A stretch of DNA of 64,000 nucleotides from Sideroxydans sp. (GTDB lineage Bacteria; Pseudomonadota; Gammaproteobacteria; Burkholderiales; Gallionellaceae): assembly GCA_027310665.1 (NCBI GenBank), contig DAIDAJ010000036.1:62001-126000 (forward strand), read 5' to 3'. The notes below the pieces were generated by a model, which was not told where the DNA came from, made no database searches, and saw only the letters and a program-made list of their open reading frames with translations. The position numbers and the translations under genes were made by a program. Below are positions 38,144 through 41,016 of the stretch, one piece after another; position 1 is the first letter of the stretch; the number at the start of each line of letters is the position of its first letter.

Positions 38144-38150
38144 CTTATAA

Positions 38151-38256
38151 CCAGTAGCTCAGCTACCGCACGTTTCACCTCCCTGTACGTGCGTTCTTAA
38201 CTCTCCCCTGGTTAAGACACTTGCCCCTGTTCCGTCTGGATCAGGGGCATTTTTCT
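38151..38256 (+). ncRNA. Candidate trans-acting small RNA with C-rich hairpin loops
   Basis: About 106 nt between a strong promoter and a terminator, with no credible reading frame. Four consecutive hairpins are visible: GTAGC/GCTAC (38154-38166); a perfect 7-bp stem CGCACGT/ACGTGCG (38167-38173 and 38187-38193) with loop TTCACCTCCCTGT; a perfect 7-bp stem TCTTAAC/GTTAAGA (38195-38201 and 38211-38217) with loop TCTCCCCTG; and the terminator stem. The exposed CCUCCC and CUCCCC loops are complementary to Shine-Dalgarno sequences, the architecture of CcsR (Rhodobacter), sX13 (Xanthomonas) and NmsR (Neisseria) small RNAs. Transcription was not observed; the call rests on structure and flanking signals. 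Confidence 0.62.
38223..38256 (+). terminator. Terminator of candidate small RNA
   Basis: GCCCCTG (38223-38229) pairs with CAGGGGC (38242-38248) around a 12-base loop and is followed by ATTTTTCTT. It is the only strong plus-strand terminator in this gene-free stretch. Confidence 0.85.
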
Positions 38257-38280
38257 TGCCTGATTATCCGATTTAATTGA

Positions 38281-38364: not shown

Positions 38365-38691
38365 TTACATCTTTGGATGTGGTGTTTGCTTGGGATTGGG
38401 ATGAGTGTCATCTTCCAAATAGCAGTGTGCCAAATACGCATCTTTCTTCTTACCATCCAGTTTCATGTTCTTTGCATTCTGATCGCATTGCTCTGCCTTC
38501 TCACTAAATTGAAAAGCGGTCATGTCAATTCTCTTCAAGCATGACTTCAAGAAAATATCTCTTTTATGTGCATTGGAGATCTTTGCACCTTCTTTAGAGC
38601 ACTCTTTAGCATATTCAGCATCATGTGCAAATGCGGGAGCGGCGATAGCAGCCAGCAGAAAACCAGTTAGTACAATTGTATTTTTAGACAT
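38365..38691 (-). CDS. PsiF-like small secreted protein
   Basis: 108 residues with a clear signal peptide (MSKNTIVLTGFLLAAIAAPAFA). The mature part contains two copies of the PsiF-type pattern with paired cysteines: YAKECSKEGAKISNAHKRD ending in LKSCLK, and AEQCDQNAKNMKLDGKKKD ending in LAHCYL. PsiF is phosphate-starvation induced in E. coli but its function is unknown. Ribosome site GAGAGG precedes the ATG. It is the last gene of a same-strand run of very small genes (38789-39343), from which it is separated by 97 bases. Confidence 0.82.
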   Translation of the reverse strand: MSKNTIVLTGFLLAAIAAPAFAHDAEYAKECSKEGAKISNAHKRDIFLKSCLKRIDMTAFQFSEKAEQCDQNAKNMKLDGKKKDAYLAHCYLEDDTHPNPKQTPHPKM

Positions 38692-38788: not shown

Positions 38789-38893
38789 TTAGTCTACGCT
38801 TGCCAAAAGGGCCGGGAGTGCCACCAGAAATGCTGCGATAACAGCCACGATCCATCGAACATATTTGGCAGCCTCTTCATATACGTGTTTCAT
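38789..38893 (-). CDS. 34-residue single-span membrane peptide
   Basis: Reads MKHVYEEAAKYVRWIVAVI and continues as a hydrophobic helix to ALLASVD before TAA. It has a strong GGAGGT ribosome site 5 bases before the ATG. The first 13 residues are charged and amphipathic, the next 18 hydrophobic, so it is probably an inner-membrane peptide with a cytoplasmic N-terminus. Too short for usual gene callers. Third gene in a same-strand run after the 76- and 37-residue proteins. Function unknown; a phage-like holin, type I toxin or regulatory membrane peptide are all possible. Confidence 0.62.
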   Translation of the reverse strand: MKHVYEEAAKYVRWIVAVIAAFLVALPALLASVD

Positions 38894-38958
38894 CTGCTAC
38901 CTCCAGTTTGTTGGGTCATGAATCTGAACTTGTAACACTCTATCCGGAACTGCTTCAG

Positions 38959-39072
38959 TCAGGCAAAGCTGGCCAAAGCAGCTATAGACACCGCGGCCGC
39001 CGCAAGCCAACCCAATGCTGACTGGAAGTTGATATCGGCCTTGTCTTCACTGTTGATGATCTTGTCGTTCAT
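38959..39072 (-). CDS. 37-residue hydrophobic-tailed peptide with LGWLAA motif
   Basis: Reads MNDKIINSEDKADINFQSA followed by the tail LGWLAAAAVSIAALASFA and TGA. An AGGAG ribosome site sits 6 bases upstream of the ATG. The polar first half and hydrophobic C-terminal half suggest a tail-anchored membrane peptide. Its tail is clearly related to the end of the 76-residue protein encoded 40 bases upstream (FIGNLGWLAALSVSIASIAAS), with different codons for the shared residues, so the similarity is kept at protein level. Unknown family. Confidence 0.65.
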   Translation of the reverse strand: MNDKIINSEDKADINFQSALGWLAAAAVSIAALASFA

Positions 39073-39112
39073 GATGGTCTCCTAAAGTTTTAGATTTTCA
39101 AATTGCGTACGA

Positions 39113-39343
39113 TTACAGGCTGGCAGCTATAGATGCGATGCTTACAGATAGCGCCGCCAACCAGCCCAGATTCCCGATGAACTTCGTGTCATCGTTTGTC
39201 AATTCTTCCTTCCTGTTGATCTTCGCATTGATTCTGTTCAATTCCGCTTCAAGTTCTTTCAGCTTTCCTTGTTGCTTCAGAAGATCCTTGAGTTTTTCCT
39301 CATGTACCAATCTCAATGCGCTGGTGTCCATCATGTCGTTCAT
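39113..39343 (-). CDS. 76-residue coiled-coil protein with hydrophobic LGWLAA tail
   Basis: Residues about 10-55 are a charged helix with heptad-like Leu spacing (LKDLLKQQGKLKELEAELN), predicted coiled coil; residues 57-76 are the hydrophobic tail GNLGWLAALSVSIASIAASL. AAAGGAAA precedes the ATG by 6-7 bases. It heads a same-strand run with the 37- and 34-residue peptides, and both this and the 37-residue peptide start MND. It could place a coiled-coil domain on the inner membrane face. No family recognised. Confidence 0.68.
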   Translation of the reverse strand: MNDMMDTSALRLVHEEKLKDLLKQQGKLKELEAELNRINAKINRKEELTNDDTKFIGNLGWLAALSVSIASIAASL

Positions 39344-39589
39344 TTCAAGTTTCCTTTCAGTTAATGGTTATTTTCGTGTCATCAATCTACTACCGTGCCA
39401 TATCAATTCGCTTCGTGAATGCTGTTGGCGATGCGATGTATGCATATTGCCTGCAGCCCTCCGGTATGTATTTCAGTCGAATCTGATAATGGCCTAGGAA
39501 ATTTCTGATTTGGCCCTGGGAATAGTCTTTTCGGGCACGGACCCGGACTGGGGAAATATGATAATATACAATATAATCAATTATATAAA

Positions 39590-39664
39590 ATGCTAATTGC
39601 GGATGATCAAGCCATCATCCAAAACGGGCTGAGACAGATGTTTTCAGACACGACCGACCTTGTG
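39590..39664 (+). pseudogene. Remnant of a NarL/LuxR-type response regulator receiver domain
   Basis: Twenty-five residues, MLIADDQAIIQNGLRQMFSD and then TTDLV, match the first beta strand, acidic pair and helix 1 of a NarL-type receiver domain. Homology then stops; the frame runs on through unrelated sequence to a stop at about 39829. An AT-rich region with TATAAT-like sequence precedes it. The gene has been destroyed, probably by the insertion and deletion events that left the transposase scar downstream. Confidence 0.6.
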
Positions 39665-39859
39665 GCTATTTCTTTGATGGGATGGACCGCACTTCCAAGC
39701 ACCCAGATTCATCTCCTCGAGCGCCCCCCAAAGAGAACAGGACTTCCGCAACGGATACAACAGCAGACGAGGGTTCAAGCAACTGAAACGGCAGCAATGG
39801 GCGAACCTTGGAGAGTATCTGTAAGATAAATTTATGACGACTACAGATTAGGAAGTGGA

Positions 39860-40060
39860 CTATGGCTTCTCCTGTACTTTCTGCGAAGGAATCACTTCTT
39901 CTTTGCCAAATTCGAGCCAATCCTCTCCAAACAGCTCAATTGGATGTTGTGCGCGTTCCGAACCGTTGCCGCAATACATTGAATCAACAGAGCAGTATCT
40001 ATCGCATCCCCAGCAAATCCGTTCAGGGTGTGCGGGGTGTATCGGGATTTTTTTGGCCAT
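39860..40060 (-). CDS. DUF3079 family cysteine-rich small protein
   Basis: 66 residues: MAKKIPIHPAHPERICWGCD, then RYCSVDSMYCGNGSERAQHP and IELFGEDWLEFG. The pattern CWGCDxYC plus CGNG followed by HPIELFGEDW matches the DUF3079 family, small proteins of unknown role whose four cysteines probably bind a metal such as zinc. The ATG at 40060 follows a GGAAGG ribosome site; a TTG five codons upstream is rejected. Intact gene surrounded by decayed ones. Confidence 0.82.
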   Translation of the reverse strand: MAKKIPIHPAHPERICWGCDRYCSVDSMYCGNGSERAQHPIELFGEDWLEFGKEEVIPSQKVQEKP

Positions 40061-40183
40061 CTCACCTTCCTTCAAGTTCAGTATTCGAATGACGGTGCTT
40101 ACCTTGGTGCAGGGCTACCCATCGAGTTGTGAAAATAAGTCTCGCCAAGCATTTTCGTATTCGACAATTAAGCTGAGGCCATC

Positions 40184-40507
40184 TTGGTCGGGCCGCCTGC
40201 ATGGATCGGCATCAATCTCTCCAGCCAGAAGGAGTTGATCGCCCAGGCAGCCCCCAAGGCGCGCGACTTCACCAACCAGAAGGGATTCCGCAACAGAGGA
40301 CTCAGTGAGTGGGAACAGGCGAAGAACAGTAGAAAGTCGAGCGTGCGTGCCAAGGTCGAACATGCCTTCCTCATCATCAAGCGCCTCTTTGGCTTTGCCA
40401 AGGTCAGCTATCGCGGCATGGCGAAGAACGGCAATCGCCTGTTTGTTGTGGCGGCACTGGCAAATCTGTTCATGGCGCGACATCATCTGTTGCGACTTCC
40501 ACAGTGA
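40184..40507 (+). mobile_element. C-terminal remnant of an IS5-family transposase
   Basis: About 107 codons. The end RAKVEHAFLIIKRLFGFAKV and SYRGMAKNGNRLFVVAALAN matches the C-terminal DDE region of IS5-group transposases, including the Glu of VEHAF and the YRG motif. The N-terminal two thirds, including the two catalytic Asp residues, are missing and no terminal inverted repeats were recognised. It is an insertion-sequence scar lying between a broken response regulator and a truncated PLP enzyme. Confidence 0.75.
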
Positions 40508-40635
40508 AGGTGTGTCCGATGAATGAGGAATCGACCGGAATGGTCGGCGAAATGACCCCTGCCAGGGTAATTTCCGGCCAATTCGAATATCCACTGCAGA
40601 TTGTGTGCGCGTCGTTTTCATTTGTCGTTACTTAT

Positions 40636-41016
40636 TCAGACCTTCCCTTGCAGCGGTAATTGTTTAGAAAGGAATTCCAAAGAACCGCCATATGCATCCC
40701 CTATGCAGACGATTCCTTGCCGACCATGCGCAAAAAACAAAGCCGCCTCAGCTGCCATACCGGAGCAAAATGCCAAGGCAGCCTCTGCACTTTCCAGAGC
40801 TGCAAGCTTTTCTTCCAGGGCGCGAATGGTCGGATTTGAACCGAAGCGGGTATACAGATTACCTTGGGTGCGCCCTTCGACGACATTCAGCAAGTCTTCC
40901 GTTGATTTGAATTTGAATGTGGTCGAGGTGTAGACGGGCGTGTGCGGTGAGCCCTGCGCATCCTTCATTTCGCCGGCATGCACGCAACGTGTGGAAAGCC
41001 CTTCGTTTGCTTTCAT
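40636..41016 (-). pseudogene. Truncated Cys/Met metabolism PLP-dependent enzyme
   Basis: 126 codons match the N-terminus of the cystathionine gamma-synthase/methionine gamma-lyase family: STRCVHAGE, TPVYTSTTFKF, YTRFGSNPTIRALEEKLAAL, and FCSGMAAE. Full enzymes have about 390 residues with the PLP lysine near 205, which is absent here. Homology ends at GKV followed by a stop, 128 bases from the transposase remnant, so the gene was probably cut by that element. Not expected to be active. Confidence 0.82.

Follow-up and report, generated by a model that had tools for sequence, protein, structure and literature searches.

The locus considered here raises the question of whether a run of three very small reading frames, two of them with a shared hydrophobic tail, encodes real proteins and, if so, of what kind. 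A first-pass annotation had placed three same-strand genes, of 76, 37 and 34 codons, at the head of a run ending in a secreted PsiF-like protein, and had proposed a new membrane-peptide system. All three open reading frames were found as described on the minus strand of the window, the whole 64,000-nucleotide stretch analyzed here (Table 1), which belongs to a genome of 3.19 Mb in 127 contigs. The pattern F-x3-LGWLAA-x2-VSIA-x2-A is present in both the 76-aa and the 37-aa proteins. Good ribosome sites, initially reported for all three genes, precede the 37-aa (AGGAGA) and 34-aa (GGAGG) genes, whereas the site of the 76-aa gene is only moderate (AAAGGAAA).

Table 1. Features of the locus, in window coordinates.
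Feature	Position	Strand	Basis and remarks
76-aa gene with LGWL tail	39113..39343	-	ORF 39343-39113; homology, selection, predicted structure
37-aa gene, short polar N-terminus and LGWL tail	38959..39072	-	ORF 39072-38959; homology, selection
34-aa gene, second small single-span family (R-W ... V-A-L-P)	38789..38893	-	ORF 38893-38789; homology, selection
108-aa probably secreted PsiF-like protein	38365..38691	-	PsiF match below curated cut-off
Small-RNA-like element	38145-38262	+	z -6.57; C-rich loops CACCUCCCUG and CUCUCCCCUG; terminator-like end
Conserved element before the 76-aa gene (-170 to -20)	39363..39513	-	Includes 28-mer AGAAATTTCCTAGGCCATTATCAGATTC at 39479-39506
Remnant (~27 codons) of a divergent LuxR-type response regulator gene	39581..39661	+	67-70% identity, E 1e-8 to 5e-8

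Selection was estimated by the Nei-Gojobori method from six copies of the three-gene unit, two each in genomes G000, G029 and G023, the pairs of which are not independent of each other. The dN/dS ratio ranges from 0.10 to 0.34 for the 76-codon gene (15 pairs), from 0 to 0.09 for the 37-codon gene (14 informative pairs out of 15) and from 0 to 0.46 for the 34-codon gene (15 pairs), the highest value corresponding to two synonymous and three other changes. Selection at the protein level, as proposed initially, is thus purifying in all three genes, and the 34-codon gene is as real as the other two, since synonymous change greatly exceeds other change there too. Homologues exist and dN/dS is well below one, the two points on which the first-pass annotation had made its reading depend.

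A profile built solely from 76-aa-type proteins recovered the 37-aa gene from the whole genome with E = 2.2e-5, so that the likeness of the two tails is beyond chance. Three more long copies occur in the same genome (84, 63 and 49% identity). The old duplication suggested before is supported by this tail homology, by the tail-profile matches and by the repeated gene order. The tail profile, which spans 28 positions and was built from members including those of the window's genome, finds a match at E up to 0.01 in 39 of the 158 Gallionellaceae genomes; in 31 it lies below 1e-10, and in the other eight it is weak (E 5e-4 to 0.01). The largest number of places in one genome, nine, is found in the window's own genome. 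In a phylum sample of 398 genomes a good tail match occurs in the window's genome only, five others giving partial matches (E 0.004-0.009) in unlike frames, and the full-length profile matches 2 of 300 genomes of the order, both of them Gallionellaceae. Relatives were located at 19 named loci, assigned to Sideroxydans (four), Gallionella (six), Gallionellaceae (one), Nitrosomonadales (one) and Proteobacteria MAG records (seven), which makes a Gallionellaceae origin of the window very probable.

The fetched loci yielded 97 distinct members, whose tail follows, with few exceptions, the consensus [DE]-x2-[FY]-x3-L-G-W-L-x-A-x-[SA]-V-[ST]-I-A-x2-A; in these profile-picked members the acidic position (D/E) and I/V are kept in 97/97, F/Y and W in 96/97 and G in 95/97. 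The heads vary. Proteins of about 65-80 aa carry a coiled-coil-like helix, others of 76-80 aa (L142, L172, L175) another helical head, and those of about 33-45 aa short polar heads. The second type (L142:6004-6234, L172 and L175:2510-2752) joins the LGWL tail to a head of the form PERR-x-EI-x2-LAA; the L142 gene lies directly after an MCP gene, and for the L175 protein no Pfam model scored above its cut-off. In two MAG loci (L147, L148) a short tail gene directly follows an Hsp20 gene, a stress-type neighbor assigned by Pfam in L147 and by membership of the same cluster in L148. Gene neighborhoods differ widely among the dispersed copies. At least five matching bases of a ribosome site precede 33 of 37 short tail genes, and GGAGG/AGGAG precedes 7 of 431 random ATG codons, counts that lean upward because start codons were picked partly by ribosome-site strength.

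For the 76-aa protein, AlphaFold2 (22 sequences) predicts a charged, coiled-coil-like helix at residues 7-43 and a hydrophobic C-terminal helix at 50-75, with a pLDDT of 79.5 in the best of five models (65.7-71.7 in the others) and a pTM of 0.52, the mutual placing of the two helices being unreliable. The best 18-residue hydropathy is 1.83, 1.91 and 2.67 for the 76-, 37- and 34-aa proteins, respectively, with a low helical moment; the value of 1.83 and the predicted helix 50-75 are compatible with a putative single C-terminal membrane helix, without signal peptide, in the 76-aa protein. Over the tail family the median is 1.73 (n = 97, best 18 residues), a moderate fit to a membrane helix. The scaffold role raised in the first-pass annotation is possible for the coiled-coil-like 76-aa member.

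The 34-aa protein belongs to a separate and wide second family of 41 members, in which R, W and P are kept in 41/41, 40/41 and 41/41 and the median hydropathy is 2.24 (n = 41), a good fit to a single membrane helix. No homology was seen between the LGWL-tail and second families (hhalign probability 1.0%, one aligned column). Of the 158 Gallionellaceae genomes, 56 hold a second-family match at E up to 0.01; most of these have a single match, and none has more than three. In an order sample it matches 11 of 349 genomes, six at E up to 2.4e-5, all Gallionellaceae, and five weakly (E 5e-4 to 0.009) outside the Gallionellaceae. As far as searched, both the LGWL-tail and the companion families appear to be confined to Gallionellaceae. 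The stand-alone companion gene keeps its surroundings within the genus (L067, L132, L135 and apparently L138), where it follows a DUF2062 gene and lies near a DUF7674 gene (both by Pfam for L067), with ComEC-like and Lol-type transporter genes, read by eye, nearby.

Both families meet in a recurring unit. The order long tail, short tail, second family is kept in seven copies from four genomes, one of another genus. The seventh copy (G355, the other genus) is very divergent, with weak profile scores of 42.9, 17.8 and 21.3 bits. A response regulator is encoded opposite four of the seven copies, being OmpR-type in G355 and an intact LuxR-type regulator in G000 contig 54, G029 contig 10 and one G023 copy; the LuxR-type gene of each of the latter three is met by a convergent gene for a CHASE-PAS histidine kinase. 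In the other G029 copy the LuxR-type regulator is reduced to 14 codons. The upstream element of the window is 84-94% identical to that of five other copies, versus 37-56% from -420 to -170, and its 28-mer, with up to 3 mismatches, occurs only at six unit copies in the five genomes searched. The simple reading of this would be a trans-acting regulator. Inspection by eye of the region before the 76-aa gene spoke against a translated leader peptide, as neither its frame nor its ribosome site is kept.

In order to compare promoters, upstream regions were filtered at 65-70% identity, those remaining being still related by descent; members with profile scores under 14-23 bits (depending on the step), upstreams shorter than 110-150 bases and frames lacking an ATG were also left out. 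A scan of 86 upstreams recovered an ECF-like pattern 12 times versus 0.74 expected, and the bare GG-N10-GC core 45 times versus 33.84. Sigma-54 and sigma-32 boxes were rejected (1 and 0 of the 86 upstreams versus 0.22 and 0.04 expected). In the first loci, the loose ECF-like pattern was found before 7 of the 17 short tail genes and 6 of the 13 second-family genes that stand alone (0.26 and 0.12 expected, respectively), compared with 3 of 497 controls. Applied unchanged to later loci, it recovered 4 of 28 short tail genes versus 0.46 (maximum of 300 shuffles, 3) and 6 of 17 second-family genes versus 0.14, one of these six (L170) having been seen beforehand. The strict pattern recovered only 3 of 28 and 2 of 17 in the later loci, and a strict scan of three genomes gave 10 matches versus 4 for its backwards control.

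Three further patterns, each set after the scan of 86 upstreams, were evaluated against 510 control upstreams. GGAAC-N16..20-GTC was recovered before 12 of the 37 short tail genes, with 0.26 expected, and before 6 of the 31 second-family genes, with 0.15 expected, and GAACTT-N15..17-TC precedes 11 of 31 second-family genes (0.10 expected), each being present in 4 of the controls; the two families do not share one identical box, since the latter occurs in 0 of 37 short tail genes. The third, TTGAC-N17..19-TANNNT, is found before 14 of 45 long members (0.28 expected; 7/510 controls) and 6 of 37 short ones (0.25), and long members look sigma70-driven. Where seen, the ECF/sigmaE-like boxes lie 69-107 bases before the start; they were assigned by the letters of the sigmaE consensus. 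Putative RpoE/ECF boxes thus stand before about a third of the short members found alone, and before a minority of the members overall. An rpoE gene scores above the curated cut-off in 3/3 genomes tested, and in all three it is itself preceded by GAACTT-N16-TCAAT, read by eye and missed by the pattern scan. SigE of Bordetella, a betaproteobacterium, is active on the E. coli sigmaE promoter rpoHP3 (PMC3490749). No ECF/sigmaE box was found before the 76-, 37- or 34-codon genes of the window (L107), whose upstream element differs in sequence. The link to envelope stress that had been proposed for the window therefore stands for part of the stand-alone relatives, by their boxes, and not for the window's own unit.

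The PsiF-like gene has a related gene downstream of the unit in four of six copies in the genus. Its description as a secreted PsiF-like protein is only partly borne out: the start is signal-peptide-like (by eye), but the PsiF match is sub-threshold (E 0.4, 11 of 21 bits in Pfam; 14.9 of 165 bits in NCBIfam, far below cut-off); likeness to the PsiF family lies in cysteine-spaced repeats and in that start, both read by eye, with scores below the cut-offs. Its relative in G023 gives no PsiF match up to E 0.5. The candidate small RNA folds well, as the table indicates, and is located beyond the psiF-like gene and not, as had been stated, opposite the peptides; its loops could pair with ribosome sites. 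A look-alike in G028 (L149:1528-1672, plus strand; z -4.54) begins right after GGAACT-N17-TCTGA, a box seen again at two places in G000 and in G023, where the RNA pattern is unmatched.

Searches against known families placed none of the three peptides above curated cut-offs in Pfam or NCBIfam, the best sub-threshold values for the 76-aa protein being E 0.016 and 0.0078. Among solved structures searched by sequence the best E was 0.13, and a fold search gave 40 matches up to E 10, the best having E 1.7 and none reaching 0.001. Among the open-licence papers listed in literature searches, none dealt with this family. The new peptide system proposed at the outset is supported by selection, homology, spread and recurrence of the unit, its membrane part being predicted. 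The kind of protein is already known from small stress-linked membrane proteins such as ElaB, YqjD and YohP; what is new is that one tail carries different heads in a family of many dispersed copies, and that this family is paired with another one of tiny proteins. Genes of 33-45 codons, below usual annotation limits, form large parts of both families; the recurring unit links the two, and the promoter boxes provide a first functional handle.

DUF883 is the family name for ElaB/YqjD-type proteins, YgaM included, which bind ribosomes. The Pfam matches of the window's peptides, taken up to E 1, include no DUF883 model. Like the form predicted here, ElaB and YqjD of E. coli have a single C-terminal membrane helix and no signal peptide and are linked to stress; ElaB is described as stress-regulated (PMC6389858) and YqjD as small, tail-anchored and dimer-prone (PMC12719787). 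The LGWL members differ in reaching down to about 33 aa, and ElaB is under RpoS and OxyR, whereas the families here are linked to ECF/sigmaE-like boxes. To our knowledge, YohP belongs to no family with a shared tail. By description, YohP resembles the short members, as do further small membrane proteins that E. coli makes under stress: they have fewer than 50 residues, one hydrophobic helix and a link to stress, whereas YohP differs in being mainly N-out, C-in (PMC12719787).

The reading we favor, at just short of an even chance, is that the peptides are stress-linked single-span inner-membrane proteins that assemble through their common tail. The families are solid, and genes, homology, selection, recurrence of the unit and boxes are all shown here; insertion, topology, oligomers and role are what we infer. 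The three genes would be one copy of a duplicated operon-like unit for tiny inner-membrane proteins, located behind the conserved element and beside the pair of CHASE sensor kinase and LuxR-type regulator. Their products would be made in the cytosol and inserted by the single hydrophobic helix, the LGWL family being tail-anchored with the N-terminus presumably in the cytoplasm. The tail, with its constant acidic residue, aromatic residue, GW and small-residue pattern, may pack long and short members together or, alternatively, bind one shared membrane partner, and long members would contribute the predicted cytoplasmic coiled coil. Production would be tied to envelope or membrane stress, given the ECF/sigmaE-type boxes before some of the short members that stand alone in either family and the conserved element before the unit. 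The most likely role of the peptides would be to protect the inner membrane or a membrane complex, or to tune one of them, as known stress-induced small membrane proteins do. If true, the shared tail would represent a natural mix-and-match assembly of membrane microproteins. A broader version, speculative and rather doubtful as a whole, would be a private Gallionellaceae membrane system of dispersed genes, up to about nine per genome, in which different cytoplasmic heads on one tail form hetero-oligomers with the second tiny partner, the make-up being set by an envelope-stress sigma factor and two-component control and perhaps sustaining the inner membrane and electron transport during iron oxide formation at the cell surface. 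The envelope biology of relatives of neutrophilic iron oxidisers is little known.

The neighbors of the unit could also mean that its peptides are feedback or connector peptides acting on the CHASE sensor kinase, in the way that MgrB acts on PhoQ. This is unlikely, despite several points in its favor. A LuxR-type regulator and a CHASE kinase lie beside three unit copies, an OmpR-type regulator faces both the unit of another genus and a 55-aa tail gene, and the 28-mer is confined to unit copies in the genomes searched. At 14 of 33 loci a tail gene has regulator, kinase or GGDEF/EAL-type genes within 4.5 kb (clusters c2, c3 and c4, their names taken from a few members through Pfam or by eye), a raw count in which five loci are orthologues of one place. 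In the MgrB-type case a membrane peptide of very small size is coupled to a two-component system (PMC2789325), one peptide to one kinase, whereas the genes here are dispersed and multi-copy, their signalling neighbors vary in kind, and at 19 of 33 loci no signalling gene lies within 4.5 kb. Also, the peptides remain under selection where the regulator is cut to about 27 codons (window) or 14 (G029). A respiratory role is improbable in turn. CydX and CcoM are small subunits of terminal oxidases or respiratory complexes, and at 10 of 33 loci, in three genera, a long member has genes of a COX1-containing cluster (c1) no more than 4.5 kb away, with COX1, thioredoxin-like and cytochrome c domains confirmed at L039 and CcoG read by eye in L010. 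Five of the ten loci, however, are orthologues of one place, no oxidase gene was present among the scanned neighbors of short members and second family, and up to nine tail genes per genome exceed the need for an accessory subunit.

Toxin-like and holin-like functions, both listed in the first-pass annotation, fared worse. Type I toxin-like membrane peptides restrained by an antisense RNA would fit the size, copy number and hydrophobic helix, and a folded small RNA with C-rich loops is nearby; this RNA is nevertheless not antisense to the peptides, the window has no Rfam match and five peptides have no significant PADLOC match (best E 0.027). The same tail is carried by long coiled-coil-like members, and some orthologues keep their places. 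With nothing positive obtained for it, a toxin is quite improbable. Derivation from phage holin or lysis peptides scarcely deserves credence: a 40-aa relative has one PHROG holin/antiholin match at E 0.17, yet five peptides gave no significant PHROG match, and in searches with the 76-aa protein and its family as queries the protein matched none of 50,697 phage and 72,556 plasmid records and the family profile matched no viral contig.

The stretch of the window from 39581 to 41016 is decayed. The regulator remnant is followed by a transposase-like ORF of 107 aa (40184-40507, by eye) and by a truncated Cys/Met PLP-enzyme ORF (40636-41016) that covers profile positions 1-113 of 381.
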